Part shown: positions 1 through 44,669 of the stretch, piece by piece | Layout of the letters: every line of letters starts with the position of its first letter | Numbering within the stretch: position 1 is the stretch's first letter | Assembly (NCBI GenBank): GCA_945860275.1 | Contig: CAMAPN010000003.1 | Span: 30,703-94,702 of the forward strand | DNA from: Bifidobacterium breve | GTDB taxonomy: Bacteria; Actinomycetota; Actinomycetes; Nanopelagicales; Nanopelagicaceae | DNA: 64,000 nucleotides | Reading direction: 5' to 3' | Notes under the pieces: generated by a model | Database searches by the model: none | What the model was told of the DNA's origin: nothing | Seen by the model: only the letters and a program-made list of their open reading frames with translations | Position numbers and translations under genes: made by a program

Positions 1-963
1 CGCGCAAAGCATGCCTTCATCTATATTCGTGGTGAAGTTACACACGTGACGCGACGATTATTACAAGCTATTGATGATGCGTATAAAGCAGGATTCCTTG
101 GTAAGAACATTTTGGGAACTGGATTTGATCTCGAACTGACGCTCCACATTGGTGCGGGCGCATATATCTGCGGTGAAGAGACGGCGCTTCTTGATTCACT
201 CGAAGGTTTCCGCGGTCAACCACGACTTCGCCCACCTTTCCCTGCAATTGCAGGTCTTTATGCCAGACCAACAGTGGTTAATAACGTCGAGTCAATCGCC
301 TCCGTTCCTGCAATCATTGAAAAAGGTGCAGAGTGGTTCGCATCCCTTGGCACAGAAAAGAGCAAAGGCTTCACTCTCTATTCGCTATCAGGCCACGTAA
401 ATAACCCGGGGCAATTTGAAGCGCCACTTGGCATCACACTTCGTGAGCTTCTTGATCTTGCAGGTGGAATTCGAACAGGTCACACTTTGAAATTCTGGAC
501 ACCAGGTGGATCGTCCACGCCTATTTTCACCGACGCACATCTAGATACACCCCTTGATTACGAATCAGTGAGCGCGGCAGGTTCGATGCTCGGTACCAAA
601 GCGCTACAAATCTTCGATGAAACTACTTGCGTGCTTCGTGCGGTACTTCGATGGACCGAGTTCTACAAGCATGAATCGTGTGGCAAGTGCACCCCTTGCC
701 GAGAAGGCACCTGGTGGTTGGTTCAGATTCTTCGCGACCTCGAGAATGGCAAAGGTAGTGAGGCAGATCTTGCCAAGCTGCTTGACCTTTGCGACAACCT
801 TTTGGGTCGTTCGTTCTGCGCTCTTGGTGATGGCGCAGCAAGTCCGATTATGTCCTCCATCAAATACTTCAGGGACGAGTACCTAGCGCATCTCACTCAC
901 GGTGGTTGTCCATTCGATCCAGTGGCATCAACGCTCTTCGCTTCAAGCAAGGTAGGTGCATAA
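1..963 (+). CDS. nuoF: NADH-quinone oxidoreductase subunit F (5' truncated)
   Basis: The reading frame is open from the first base of the window, so the 5' end lies upstream. The GTG at 46 proposed by the ORF track is internal. NuoF is the peripheral-arm subunit that binds FMN and the N3 [4Fe-4S] cluster and takes electrons from NADH. The fragment shows the glycine-rich [14 protein letters not shown] stretch, and near the C-terminus the cluster ligands [10 protein letters not shown] followed by a later Cys in [10 protein letters not shown]. It overlaps or abuts nuoG and heads an unbroken nuoF-G-H-I-J-K-L-M-N run, so it is part of the complex I operon. Identification is secure; only the N-terminal part is missing. 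Confidence 0.97.
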
Positions 964-967
964 CTCA

Positions 968-3304
968 ATGACTGCCGTACAACCCCAAACAGATCAAATA
1001 ACGTTGACGATTGATGGATTTGAAGTAACCGTTCCGAAAGGCACGCTCGTTATTCGTGCAGCCGAGCAGTTGGGAATCCAAGTTCCGCGTTTTTGCGACC
1101 ATCCATTGCTTTCACCAGTTGGCGCCTGTCGTCAATGTTTGGTTTATATCGAGATCAATGGTCGTGCATTTCCAAAGCCGCAAGCTTCGTGCACTATTCC
1201 CGTTGAAAATGGCATGGTTGTAAAGACGCAACTCACCTCTGACGTCGCCCAAAAAGCGCAAGAAGGTGTAATGGAATTTCTCTTGGTCAATCATCCACTT
1301 GATTGCCCGGTCTGCGATAAGGGTGGCGAGTGCCCATTGCAGAACCAAGCCATGAGCAATGGTCGTGGTGAAAGTCGTTTTGAAGGAAAAAAGCGAACAT
1401 TCGAAAAGCCAATTCATATCTCTTCCCAAGTTTTACTCGACCGCGAGCGATGCATCCTTTGTGCACGTTGCACTCGATTCTCAAAAGAGATTGCTGGCGA
1501 TCCATTCATTGACATGGGTGAACGTGGCGCGCTCCAACAAGTCTCAATCTATGAGAAAGATCCGTTTGATTCGTACTTCTCTGGAAATACTGTACAAATT
1601 TGTCCAGTAGGTGCGCTCACTGGATCTGCATATCGATTCCGATCTCGACCATTCGATTTGATATCCACACCATCTGTCTGCGAACACTGCGCGTCAGGAT
1701 GTTCAATGCGAACCGATGTCCGTCGGAATAAGACGCTCCGTCGACTCGCTGGAAACGATCCAGAGGTAAACGAAGAGTGGAATTGCGATAAAGGTCGATG
1801 GGCGTTCCAATACACGATGGCAAAAGATCGAATCGCTGTGCCATTGATTCGTGAAAACGGAGTATTACGTGAGGCATCCTGGCCAGAAGCGTTAGCTGCA
1901 GCAGCTGCAGGTCTAAAAGGTAAGAAAGCTGGCGTGCTCGTTGGTGGCCGTACAACCGTTGAAGATGCATATGCTTATGCGAAATTTTCTCGAGTTGCTC
2001 TAGGAACTAATGACATTGATTTCCGCTCCCGTCCTCATAGTGCAGAGGAGCGCAACTTCCTAGCCAGCCACGTTGTTGGTTCAGCGGTGCGCTACAGCGA
2101 TATCGATCAAGCCGATCATGTTGTGCTCGTTGGTATTGAGCCTGAAGAGGAATCGCCAATTGTTTTCTTGAGAATACGCAAGCAAGTTCGTCAACGTGGT
2201 TTGGTCGTTACCGCAATCGCACCTTGGCAGACTCGAGGTTTTAAGAAGCTAGATGCGAAATATGTTGGTGTGGTTCCAGGAACCGAAGCGAGTGCGATTG
2301 CGCAATTAGCTCTGACGAGCGCATCTGTAATCGTCGTAGGCGAGCGACTCTGCGAATCTGCTGGTGCGCTATCTGCTGTGGCAGAGCTTGCTAGCAAGAG
2401 TGGTGCAAAGATTGCATGGGTGCCTCGTCGCGCTGGCGAACGCGGCGCACTTGAAGCTGGTGCGATTGGAAATCTACTTCCTGGTGGGCGTCCGATTTCA
2501 GATGCTGCTGCTCGAGTAGATGTCGCTGCGGCATGGTCTGTTGAGTCGCTACCGAGCGCAATTGGTTTGGATAGCACAGCAATACTTGCTGGCGCAGCAA
2601 GCGGTGCAATTGAAGCGCTTGTTGTAGGTGGTGTTGATCCTTTCGATATGCATGCTCCAGAAATTGCTGGCCTTGATAAGGCGTTCGTACTTTCGTTAGA
2701 AATGCGACCAAGTGCGATCACTGAACGAGCCGATGTCGTTCTTCCAATTGCTGCGGTAGTTGAGAAATCTGGTTCGTTTATGTCGTGGGAGGGCAGAGTT
2801 CGCGCCTTTGAGCAATCTGTTCCAGAGACCCCACATCACAGCGATCTCTATGTTCTCTCGCTTGTAGCAGAAGCGCTAGGCGCTCCACTTGGTTTCAGTA
2901 CAGTGAAAGGCGCCGCGAAGGAGTTTGGCACTTTAGCGAAATGGGATGGCGCGCGCGAAAGCTTTACTGCAACTACAGCATCTACAGCAGCCAGCTCCAC
3001 TGCGCTTGCAACCTGGCGTCAACTTCTCGATAACGGAACACTTCAAATTAACGAACCGAATCTCGCTGGAACTGCGCGAGCCGCTGTTGCTCGCATCAAT
3101 GCAGCATTTGCGAAATCACTTGCAGTTGTCAATGGTGATCTCATCACCATTTCAACAGATCGAGGCGCGCTCTCTCTTAACGTGGAGATTAGCGATGTCG
3201 TAGACAATGTCGTCTGGTTGCCCAGAAATGGAGTCGGTTCGCAATCACTTCGGATGCTCGGCGCCCTAAACGGTGCAGAAGTAAAAGTACGTAAGGGGCT
3301 ATGA
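968..3304 (+). CDS. nuoG: NADH-quinone oxidoreductase subunit G
   Basis: This is the large iron-sulfur subunit of complex I, with an N-terminal ferredoxin-like region and a molybdopterin-oxidoreductase-like body. Numbering from the track's GTG, the [2Fe-2S] ligands are C47, C58, C61 and C79. They are followed by the [14 protein letters not shown] box and two further cysteine groups, CILCARC...CPVGALT and CEHCASGC. The track starts at GTG 956, inside nuoF. I prefer ATG 968, four bases after the nuoF stop, because GGTAGGT lies about 10 nt upstream and the first four track residues are not family-like. Length (about 778 aa) is normal for actinobacteria. The 3' end overlaps nuoH by 4 nt (ATGA). 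Confidence 0.96.
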
Positions 3305-41591: not shown

Positions 41592-42485
41592 ATGAACAAG
41601 CAAGCCGGTATCAAACACGCGGTCATTCCTGCCGCCGGACTTGGCACTCGTTTCCTCCCTGCGACCAAAGCAATCCCGAAAGAGATGCTTCCGGTCGTCG
41701 ATAAACCTGCGATTCAGTATGTTGTCGAAGAGGCCTACTTGGCAGGCTTTACCGACGTACTGTTAATTACCGGGCATAACAAGGGAGCTCTTGTTGATCA
41801 TTTCGCACAAGCTCCCGAATTGGAACAGACTCTGCATGCACGAGGTGATGCAGAACGATTAACCGCATTGAGACACCTCAACACGCTCCCTCCGCTGCAC
41901 ACAGTTAGGCAAGAGAGCGCACGCGGTCTAGGTGATGCCGTTCTAAGCGCGGCTGAGCATGTTGGTGATTCACCATTTGCGGTCCTACTTGGTGATGACC
42001 TCATCGAACCCAGTGATCTGCTGTGGCAGAAGATGCTTGATGTGCATGCGCGTTATGGTGGCTCGGTCCTGGCTTTGATGGAAGTTTCCGATGACGATGT
42101 TTCAAAGTATGGAATTGCAGCCATTTCAGGAACTGACCCTGCTCGAGTGCTCGATTTGGTAGAGAAACCATCAAAAGCGGAGGCACCAAGCAACTACGCA
42201 ATCATCGGTCGATACATTTTATCTCCAGCTATTTTCTCCGTTCTTCGCCATACTTCCGCAGGTAAAGGTGGCGAAGTTCAACTCACTGATGCGATAGCTG
42301 CGCTCGCTCGTGACGAACAAATCGGCGGGCCGGTCCATGCGGTGGTCGTTAATGTCCGTCGCTTTGATACTGGGGATCGATTGAGTTACCTCAAGACAGT
42401 TGTGGAGTTTGCGACTCGTCGTGAAGACCTAGGTCCCGATTTTGCGAAATGGTTGAAAGGATACGTGCGAGAACTCAATGATTAG
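41592..42485 (+). CDS. galU: UTP-glucose-1-phosphate uridylyltransferase
   Basis: A 297-aa nucleotidyltransferase making UDP-glucose. The N-terminal signature AVIPAAGLGTRFLPATKAIPKEMLPVVDKPAIQYVVEEA is textbook GalU, and the VVNVRRFDTGDRLSYLKTVVEFA end is also typical. It heads the galU-glp-GNAT-glpR cluster and overlaps glp by 8 nt. The cluster is conserved in actinobacteria and joins envelope precursor synthesis with division proteins. Confidence 0.96.
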   Translation: MNKQAGIKHAVIPAAGLGTRFLPATKAIPKEMLPVVDKPAIQYVVEEAYLAGFTDVLLITGHNKGALVDHFAQAPELEQTLHARGDAERLTALRHLNTLPPLHTVRQESARGLGDAVLSAAEHVGDSPFAVLLGDDLIEPSDLLWQKMLDVHARYGGSVLALMEVSDDDVSKYGIAAISGTDPARVLDLVEKPSKAEAPSNYAIIGRYILSPAIFSVLRHTSAGKGGEVQLTDAIAALARDEQIGGPVHAVVVNVRRFDTGDRLSYLKTVVEFATRREDLGPDFAKWLKGYVRELND

Positions 42486-43368
42486 CGTTGACACATATTT
42501 ACAAGAGGTACTCGCCATCGCGCACCCATTAGCGCCACTTGATATGCCGTTATTAGATGCGCATAACGCGACGCTATCGAGTGATGTGTATGCAGGGGAT
42601 CGATTAGTGCTGCGCGCAGGACGAAGGATTCGCTCCACACATATTGGACTTGCCGCTTCGATCGGCTTGGATCATCTACCCACTCGCCCACACCCACGAG
42701 TAGTTGTCATTTCTGCTGGTGAAGATCTCACCGAACCAGGTCATACGATTGATGAGCGCCACTCGTACGAAGCGAACTCTTGGTTGTTAACGACTGCTGT
42801 TCGTGAGGCTGAAGCGATTGGTTACCGAGTCCACACGATTCCGGATACGACAGAAGAGCTCAAGGACCTCATTGAAGATCAGTTGGTGCGGGCAGATTTA
42901 GTCGTCATCTCAAGTGGACCACGCTCGGTTGCGATGATGCGAGAATCGCTGAGCGCGCTAGGTGAGATGCATGAGCGAGAGGTGGCTATGGAGCCCAGTG
43001 GGCATCATAGTTATGGGCTAATTGGGCCGGATCGAACTCCGGTTATCACATTGCCTTCAGATTCGAGGGGCGCATACATTGCTTTTGAATTATTTGTGCG
43101 TCCGATGATTCGACAGATGTTAGGAAGAAAGAGCCTGACACATCGAACGCTAAGCGCAACGTTAGTAGGAGAGATTTCTGGATCGAAAGAGGTGCGATCC
43201 TTTCATGAAGCGATCATTAGCCACGAAAACGAAGTCTTGCGCGCACAGCCGGTGCTTGCGAATGAACGTGGCGAGGCAAACGGTCTCGTAGTTATTGATG
43301 AACAACATTCAGCATTGAGTAGTGGTAGTGAAGTTTCGGTAATTCTCTTTGATAGACAGTCTGAATAA
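42478..43368 (+). CDS. glp: Gephyrin-like protein Glp (MoeA homologue), reduced and probably non-catalytic
   Basis: 296 aa, whereas MoeA and Glp are about 400. The N-terminus (ISVDTYLQEVLAIAHPLAPL...ATLSSDVYA) matches MoeA domain I, then the sequence jumps directly to the equivalent of [23 protein letters not shown] (here GDRLVLRAGRRIRSTHIGLAASIG). About 110 residues are missing, which is domain II with its DNSAMDGYA motif. In domain III the SGGVS.GxxD motif reads SSGPRSVAMM, KPGKPF reads EPSGHHS and GLPGNP reads TLPSDSR. Domain IV seems present (~210-296). It is probably a scaffold, not a molybdotransferase. In actinobacteria Glp binds the division machinery and the membrane protein GlpR, encoded two genes on. 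Confidence 0.85.
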   Translation: MISVDTYLQEVLAIAHPLAPLDMPLLDAHNATLSSDVYAGDRLVLRAGRRIRSTHIGLAASIGLDHLPTRPHPRVVVISAGEDLTEPGHTIDERHSYEANSWLLTTAVREAEAIGYRVHTIPDTTEELKDLIEDQLVRADLVVISSGPRSVAMMRESLSALGEMHEREVAMEPSGHHSYGLIGPDRTPVITLPSDSRGAYIAFELFVRPMIRQMLGRKSLTHRTLSATLVGEISGSKEVRSFHEAIISHENEVLRAQPVLANERGEANGLVVIDEQHSALSSGSEVSVILFDRQSE

Positions 43369-43386: not shown

Positions 43387-43917
43387 ATGGAGCTCTCCGA
43401 CGGAGTAGTTCACCTTCGCCCAATTAATTATCGTGATGCCAAGTGGTGGAAGTTGGTGCACCAAGAGAATCGCGCATGGTTAAAACCTTGGGAGGTCAGC
43501 TACCCGGAGGGAGGCGGTGCGCCGCCGAACTTTCGGAAGATGGTGCGCGCCTTCAAAAAAGATGGTCGATGGGGTCGGTCGGAGAATCTCATCATTATGC
43601 ATGGCCCAGAGCGCGTGGGCTTTATCGCCCTTGGCGGTATCGCTTACGGTCCCTCACGGAGCGCGTTCATCGGCTATTGGGTTGTTGAGAAGTTTGCCAA
43701 TCGGGGTTTCGTCACCAGGGCCGTCGATCTCTTACGTGACCACGCCTTCGATGACCTGCGATTACATCGAATCGAAATCAATATCCGACCTGAGAACCAA
43801 CCATCGATTCGAGTGGCGATGAAAGCTGGATTCGAATTAGAAGGCAAACGTTCGAAGTATCTGCATATCGATGGTGAGTGGCGCGACCACCTCTGCTTCG
43901 TAGCAACACGAGATTAA
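43387..43917 (+). CDS. rimJ: GNAT family acetyltransferase (RimJ/RimL type)
   Basis: 176 aa. Starts with VVHLRPINYRDAKWW, the usual opening of RimJ/RimL-like enzymes that acetylate protein N-termini. The acetyl-CoA loop FANRGFVTRAVDLL and the INIRPENQPSIRVAMKAGF element are clear. GAGGAG lies about 10 nt before the ATG and the gene follows glp by 18 bp. It occupies its conserved place between glp and glpR, but its target is unknown. Confidence 0.9.
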   Translation: MELSDGVVHLRPINYRDAKWWKLVHQENRAWLKPWEVSYPEGGGAPPNFRKMVRAFKKDGRWGRSENLIIMHGPERVGFIALGGIAYGPSRSAFIGYWVVEKFANRGFVTRAVDLLRDHAFDDLRLHRIEINIRPENQPSIRVAMKAGFELEGKRSKYLHIDGEWRDHLCFVATRD

Positions 43918-43970: not shown

Positions 43971-44669
43971 ATGAGCTCAGGTTTGATCTACTTCGCCGTT
44001 ATCGCGCTCTGGGTAGCATATTTTCTACCGCGCTGGCTTCGATCGCATGACGAAGTCTCTGAAAGTAAAAGCCTTGAGCGATATCGCAGTGCGATGCATG
44101 TTGTATCAATTGGTTCGTCACCCAATACCTATATGACTAGCGCCGAGATTGCAGAGCGCGAAGCATATGCGCTTCGGAAACGACAGATCTCACTTGTGAC
44201 GCTCACTCTTTTCTTCTTCGGAACAATTATCGCGGCAATTGCTAACGCAGTACCTTTCAAATCCATATTGCTCCCACTGTCGCTATTAATTATTTTTGTT
44301 GTTCATGTCAGACGTCAAAAAGTTCAAGAAGATGTGAGACGTCGTCGTCGTGCAGCAACTATGAAGAGCAAGGGATCAAGCTTTAATTTCTCTGAGATAA
44401 CGTATCGAAACCCTGAAGGTCAAGCCAGCCAGTGGATTCCTATTAATCATTCACGTACCGTGACGGTGATTCCTAACGATTCCTGGCAACCAAGCGATAT
44501 GCCGCTGCCGACGTATGTGAACGCTCCAAAAGCTCCCGCTAGGCCAGTTGTTGGACGAAACAGTTCCGAGCTCCTTGAAGCCGTCGATGGAGTGGAGATA
44601 AAGAGCGCAGAACTCCAGGTGGATCAAGTCTTTGACCAAGAAGTGGAACGTAGAGCGTCTAACGGTTAA
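43971..44669 (+). CDS. glpR: Divisome membrane protein SepX/GlpR
   Basis: 232 aa. The N-terminus SSGLIYFAVIALWVAYFLPRWLRSHDEVSES is diagnostic for the actinobacterial SepX/GlpR family: one helix followed by PRWLRxHDE and the SLERYRSAMHVVS region. Two further hydrophobic segments (residues ~78-115) are followed by a basic stretch (HVRRQKVQEDVRRRRRA) and a ~110-residue hydrophilic tail likely to be disordered. In Streptomyces (SepX) and corynebacteria (GLPR) it takes part in division and binds Glp. Position galU-glp-GNAT-glpR is conserved. TATTCT nine bases before the ATG suggests its own promoter. Confidence 0.88.
   Translation: MSSGLIYFAVIALWVAYFLPRWLRSHDEVSESKSLERYRSAMHVVSIGSSPNTYMTSAEIAEREAYALRKRQISLVTLTLFFFGTIIAAIANAVPFKSILLPLSLLIIFVVHVRRQKVQEDVRRRRRAATMKSKGSSFNFSEITYRNPEGQASQWIPINHSRTVTVIPNDSWQPSDMPLPTYVNAPKAPARPVVGRNSSELLEAVDGVEIKSAELQVDQVFDQEVERRASNG

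Follow-up and report, generated by a model that had tools for sequence, protein, structure and literature searches.

A Glp/MoeA homologue lacking domain II, encoded beside glpR in Nanopelagicaceae

Freshwater actinobacteria of the Nanopelagicaceae type are an abundant lineage. In MoeA, domain II carries the DNSAMDGYA motif and helps to complete the active site of the partner subunit in the dimer. The stretch of DNA analysed here (64,000 nucleotides, referred to as the window) contains a gene for a Glp/MoeA homologue from which this domain is missing. How was the domain lost, and what was the rest of the protein kept for?

Re-translation reproduced exactly the reading frame, strand and length of 296 aa given in an earlier note on this DNA, and the frame had no internal stops (Table 1). 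Pfam MoeA_N, which spans domains I and II, matched only with its last 27 positions (134-160 of 160), whereas MoCF_biosynth (domain III) was complete; MoeA_C (domain IV) was partial. The best NCBIfam family was Glp (NF045515), with a match beginning at profile position 138. The score of 235 bits lies below the equivalog cut-off of 475, largely because a quarter of the protein is missing. The nearest solved structure was C. glutamicum Glp (8bve/8bvf). An AlphaFold2 model built with 37 sequences had a pLDDT of 87.6 and a pTM of 0.87, and its top PDB match in Foldseek was the C. glutamicum Glp–FtsZ complex 8bvf (TM 0.84 by query). One E. coli MoeA chain, of which just 322 residues are modelled, matched at 3.1 Å across 320 columns, consistent with a reduced core that retains the MoeA fold.

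Table 1. Features of the glp locus (window positions) and short-Glp loci of family f38
Feature	Position	Strand	Basis
galU	41592..42485	+	8-base overlap with glp start
glp, domain-II-less Glp/MoeA homologue, 296 aa	42478..43368	+	translation, Pfam, NCBIfam, structure match
N-terminal segment of domain III (Glp residues 1-19), leading into Pro-rich hinge 1 (AHPLAPLD)	42478..42534	+	alignment to 8bve; domain limits from the defining passages of PMC10522489
Glp residues 20-66, domain I, two halves directly joined	42535..42675	+	model, alignment
Deletion junction, residues 39/40 (C. glutamicum Glp 45/146), without domain II (46-145)	42592..42597	+	alignment
Glp residues 67-216, Pro-rich hinge 2 (LPTRPHPRV) and domain III (MoCF_biosynth fold)	42676..43125	+	Pfam, model, alignment
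SSGPRS, relic of the SGGVS catalytic motif	42910..42927	+	alignment
EPSGHHS, relic of QPG[MK]PQG	42991..43011	+	alignment
LPSDS, relic of LPGNP	43051..43065	+	alignment
Glp residues 217-296, domain IV; hairpin equivalent to the FtsZ/GlpR-binding loop, without its pocket residues; GSH loop shortened	43126..43365	+	alignment
rimJ-type GNAT acetyltransferase, conserved glp neighbour	43387..43917	+	Pfam, NCBIfam, locus comparison
sepX/glpR, putative membrane partner of Glp	43971..44669	+	NF050099, locus comparison
Short-Glp loci of f38 genus g85	L177, L257, L258, L260-L274

Domains I, III and IV, three of the four MoeA domains, were present. In the pairwise alignment with C. glutamicum Glp (8bve), window residues 39 and 40 fell at positions 45 and 146, and no window residue aligned within positions 46-145, the limits of domain II in the passages of PMC10522489 that define it. 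The loss is therefore exactly one structural domain. The earlier note had described a clean jump from domain I to domain III that removes DNSAMDGYA; both the alignment and Pfam bore this out, but the deletion is about 100 residues long by alignment, not ~110. The note had also read SSGPRS, EPSGHH and LPSDS as replacements of MoeA motifs, and they stand as described against T[ST]GGVS, QPG[MK]PQG and LPGNP in the full-length proteins of the family. The window Glp thus has neither the catalytic motifs nor the domain II of a MoeA insertase. Most other short-Glp genera retain LPGDP, so that by its motif sequences the window's genus is among the most eroded. Both Pro-rich hinges that link domains I and III were present, a pair described as a Glp signature in the relevant passages of PMC10522489, and their prolines (P17, P24, P68, P71 and P73) are invariant or nearly so in short Glps. 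A literature search outside subscription papers found no MoeA or Glp that lacks domain II, and the matching passages of PMC10522489 and PMC11733289 do not mention such a loss.

The window genome (1.30 Mb) is an assembly of 61 contigs and 92% complete, which leaves room for an artefact, a frameshift or a split gene whose domain II lies at another site. The probability of this is practically nil, as several closed genomes of the family carry the same short protein and no domain II match at E<=1 was found in the window genome or in complete relatives. A frameshift or assembly error and a second Glp had been named in the earlier note as evidence that would count against its reading; the closed genomes rule out the former, and no second Glp or MoeA was found in the window genome.

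The short form, whose occurrence in relatives had been left as a check, was found throughout Nanopelagicaceae. It was present in each of the genus's four other genomes (78-81% identity). Glp was found in 192 of 201 Nanopelagicaceae genomes, and the matches listed had open frames near 300 aa, many of them in single-contig genomes. For those close pairs in which synonymous sites were unsaturated, dN/dS was ~0.05-0.11; in most pairs these sites were nearly saturated. The short Glp evolves under purifying selection. Mean column identity among short Nanopelagicaceae Glps was 70%, with many invariant columns. It is very improbable that the protein is a decaying pseudogene remnant, retained by chance or through operon coupling. 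Its motifs are gone, a quarter of it is deleted, its branches in the Glp tree are long, and Glp was not detected in a few genomes of the family and several genera of f38. Against decay stand its presence in all but a few of the 201 genomes, the low dN/dS, the column conservation and the fold, which is predicted with confidence and best matches C. glutamicum Glp, the comparison that the earlier note had pointed to.

Full-length Glps also occur in the family. In genera g6 (G009, G023 and G034) and g14 (G017), Glp was 404-409 aa long, with DNSAMDG, GGVS, QPG[MK]PQG and LPGNP all intact. In both genera moaC directly follows glp, and Glp is the sole MoeA_N protein of the genome. One of these proteins (L113) scored 507 bits against NF045515. 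A tree of concatenated Nuo proteins (3251 columns; a spurious, mostly empty outgroup row, G043, was ignored) grouped g6 with g14 and placed the pair as the sister group of all short-Glp genera, with SH-aLRT values of 98 and 100, which indicates one loss of domain II within Nanopelagicaceae. The free Glp tree set g6 and g14 apart from the rest of the family, a split that we attribute to incomplete search and long branches. Transfer of their full-length Glp from outside the family was rejected, because holding the family together gave a higher likelihood (+69.5, p 0.975), and vertical descent is preferred.

Locus comparison gave two further observations. A galU gene adjoins glp in G015, in the genus of the window and in the full-length sister genera g6 and g14; it was not found around glp in the family's other short-Glp genera (L134-L141 and L143-L152). 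Six loci (L033, L055, L063, L068, L074 and L097) come from genomes titled Fonsibacter lacus, Bifidobacterium breve or Streptomyces griseus; their glp loci are of the Nanopelagicaceae type, and the titles look wrong.

A second group of short Glps was found in family f38, another actinobacterial family with small genomes. G317 from the class sample had a short Glp, and a search of the family added about 17 genomes of its genus (g85) with frames of 308-341 aa, whereas the Glps of genera g93 and g86 were full-length and motif-degraded. The f38 junction differs from that of Nanopelagicaceae in retaining about four more residues. The AlphaFold2 model of an f38 short Glp had a pLDDT of 87.9, and its best match by E-value was again 8bvf. 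In a tree of the neighbour genes (GalU, RimJ and GlpR) the two families lay apart, and joining the short-Glp groups was rejected (AU p 3e-6). The Glp tree alone allowed the joining (p 0.40), being undecided because of long branches. Both families also hold full-length members, and a single origin was rejected: domain II was lost at least twice, independently. In f38 genera g91, g92, g94 and g95, we found no Glp or only a weak MoeA match, and Glp may have been lost there altogether.

The Moco pathway was then sought in the window genome. It contained no MoaC and no PF00994 protein other than Glp, that is, no other MoeA or MogA-type protein, and no MoeA_N domain was found. A single protein matched PF00384. 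Its Nuo neighbours identify it as NuoG (window 956-3301), and it was rejected as a molybdoenzyme. The search for other moa/moe genes and molybdoenzymes, proposed in the earlier note, thus left only NuoG, and the window genome has no Moco pathway. The window genome is 92% complete, but MoaC and MoeA_N were both absent from the rest of its genus too, including the closed genome G003. Some other short-Glp genomes do have MoaC, and then also a separate MoeA of ~384-401 aa away from glp. One of them (L131, G007:C2:179500-192000) has a separate moaC and a 390-aa MoeA, close to a gene for a molybdopterin oxidoreductase (PF00384), as if Moco synthesis had been regained, or kept apart from Glp.

Is the state of Glp linked to moaC beyond this family? 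We scored four catalytic motifs in 135 Glp-locus proteins from 35 families of the class, taking motif intactness as a proxy for activity and moaC within ~4 kb as adjacent (some contigs end early). All four motifs were intact at 67 of 68 loci with adjacent moaC versus 0 of 67 without it, and short Glps were confined to the latter. The sole exception among the moaC-linked loci (G340) had a second MoeA. The relatedness of the genomes makes a raw Fisher value for this link meaningless, and independent contrasts were counted on the Glp tree instead: there were 3 when only strongly supported branches were used and 6 over all branches. For the former, nearly every draw followed the expected direction and none ran against it, the contrasts being too few for significance in a sign test. 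The same pattern was seen within families f1, f14 and f26 (in the last case within genus g42, G289 versus G227/G298).

By hand reading of the tables, Glp was the only MoeA_N protein in 42 of the 68 moaC-linked genomes. In the motif-degraded genomes checked for both proteins, MoaC was absent or encoded elsewhere, and in the latter case another MoeA was present. Domain II loss is not an automatic outcome of Moco loss, as Glp is full-length, though motif-degraded, in the MoaC-less sampled members of f5, f11, f12, f16, f29 and part of f14. Class-wide loci (L117-L256) point to galU-glp-moaC-rimJ-glpR as the ancestral operon. In its matching passages, PMC11733289 infers that Glps as a group are no longer enzymes and that bacteria with a Glp possess two or more copies of MoeA; the corresponding passages of PMC10522489 state that most actinobacterial genomes carry at least two MoeA. 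Our survey of sequences suggests that this view fits Corynebacteriales-like lineages, with their degraded motifs and extra MoeA, but not the majority of the sampled families.

Compared with known systems, the window Glp most resembles C. glutamicum Glp (8bve/8bvf, NF045515), which gave the best sequence and fold match and shares the glpR neighbourhood, the Pro-rich hinges and degraded motifs. The C. glutamicum protein differs in keeping all four domains including domain II, in its FtsZ-pocket residues and in loop length, and its host, unlike the window genome, keeps other MoeA paralogues. The insertases MoeA, gephyrin E domain and Cnx1E share domains I, III and IV and the overall fold, but the window Glp lacks their domain II, DNSAMDGYA, SGGVS, PGxPQG and GNP, and its genome lacks the Moco pathway. 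Motif-intact, moaC-linked Glps (for example L113, L117 and L120) have galU-glp-rimJ-glpR in common with the window. Unlike the window protein, they pass the NCBIfam Glp cut-off, are full-length with intact motifs, have moaC between glp and rimJ, and are often the only MoeA. The neighbouring SepX/GlpR, a putative partner of Glp and not Glp itself, reached 108 bits against NF050099 (cut-off 150) and fell under every NCBIfam SepX/GlpR cut-off, 108 of 150 bits being its best score. It is a divergent form, and annotation pipelines could overlook such proteins.

The division partners were examined next to the conservation of Glp itself. The order galU-glp-rimJ-glpR is conserved around the window Glp; glpR adjoins glp in every short Nanopelagicaceae locus examined, rimJ is also kept, and the window genome retains the FtsZ tail DELDVPDFLK. 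As described in the relevant passages of PMC10522489, domain IV of C. glutamicum Glp binds FtsZ and GlpR. Mean pairwise identities of short Nanopelagicaceae Glps were 69% in domain I, 62% in domain III and 33% in domain IV, versus 56%, 68% and 47% in motif-intact Glps, indicating that domain I became relatively more constrained and domain IV less. The FtsZ-pocket residues of the corynebacterial protein (L343, M361, R362, A364 and L370) are not conserved in short Glps, and most of them are missing from the examined motif-intact Glps as well. The hairpin position of the FtsZ-binding loop (M361-Y369) is retained in the short Glp; its residues are not. To judge from these sequences, the binding surface of the short Glp may have changed. 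The earlier note had concluded that selection kept only the scaffold. This agrees with the loss of domain II and the motifs, purifying selection, fixation across the family and the adjacent glpR. With domain IV the least conserved part, however, and the pocket residues gone, the scaffold cannot simply mean the corynebacterial binding surface.

These data bear on whether the short Glp was kept for a task outside division, such as serving the galU-rimJ operon as a metabolic or small-molecule partner through a new binding surface on domains I and III. Such a task would suit the identities of domains I and III, far above that of domain IV and the reverse of what binding through domain IV predicts, as well as the lost pocket residues and the invariance across the family of N100-S101-W102 and E133-D134-Q135-L136-V137-R138-A139-D140. 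We nevertheless consider it quite unlikely, as glpR is adjacent in every short Nanopelagicaceae locus examined and the prolines of the hinges, a mark of division Glps, hardly vary.

A reading that we find unlikely is that the motif-intact proteins are enzymes only and that Glp acts in division solely in lineages with degraded motifs; the decay of the motifs and the loss of domain II would then signal a switch to the division role, not the loss of one role out of two. In its favour, binding of FtsZ and GlpR has been demonstrated solely for C. glutamicum Glp, a degraded-motif protein, in the pertinent passages of PMC10522489. On the other hand, the three moaC-linked, motif-intact Glps tested all exceeded the NF045515 equivalog cut-off (507-600 bits), and motif-intact proteins carry both Pro-rich hinges and lie with glpR, whose counterpart SepX is a division protein in Streptomyces (PMC8748795).

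Our preferred account, which we consider probable, is that an ancestrally dual MoeA/Glp lost its enzyme half after Moco synthesis left, and that the core was kept for a division role linked to GlpR. At the start, Glp would have served both as molybdenum insertase (MoeA) and, together with the membrane protein GlpR/SepX, in division. moaC would have left the locus in the ancestor of most Nanopelagicaceae, and Moco synthesis would have been lost; the catalytic motifs would then have decayed, and domain II would have been precisely excised. With Moco synthesis gone from the locus, the enzyme half could be discarded and the rest kept. The remaining core (domains I, III and IV), with its Glp-type Pro-rich hinges and MoeA-like fold, probably dimerises, and it was most likely retained through continued work with GlpR at the division site, where it may bind GlpR, FtsZ or both. 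The fast evolution of domain IV counts against this account, being unexpected for a binding surface, and so do the loss of the FtsZ-pocket residues, though motif-intact Glps lack them too, and the NF045515 score below the cut-off.

The broader proposal, on which we are evenly divided, is that most Actinomycetes Glps are still dual, molybdenum insertase and divisome partner in one, encoded in the galU-glp-moaC-rimJ-glpR operon and often the cell's only MoeA, and that the enzyme half erodes whenever a lineage loses or relocates Moco synthesis, having twice been cut out as a whole domain. If this is true, actinobacterial Glp truly moonlights, as gephyrin does, and is not the dead enzyme accompanied by a second MoeA of published accounts. 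Two published generalisations, that Glp is catalytically dead and that it always occurs with a second MoeA, are called into question. Whether a Glp is an enzyme would be readable from gene order and can be tested experimentally. The short Glp allows a prediction of the regions that Glp requires beyond catalysis and, at ~300 aa, offers a minimal construct for structural work on FtsZ–Glp–GlpR. It amounts to a natural separation-of-function experiment, repeated twice, in which the domain expected to serve only molybdenum chemistry was deleted and the rest was kept beside the membrane partner.
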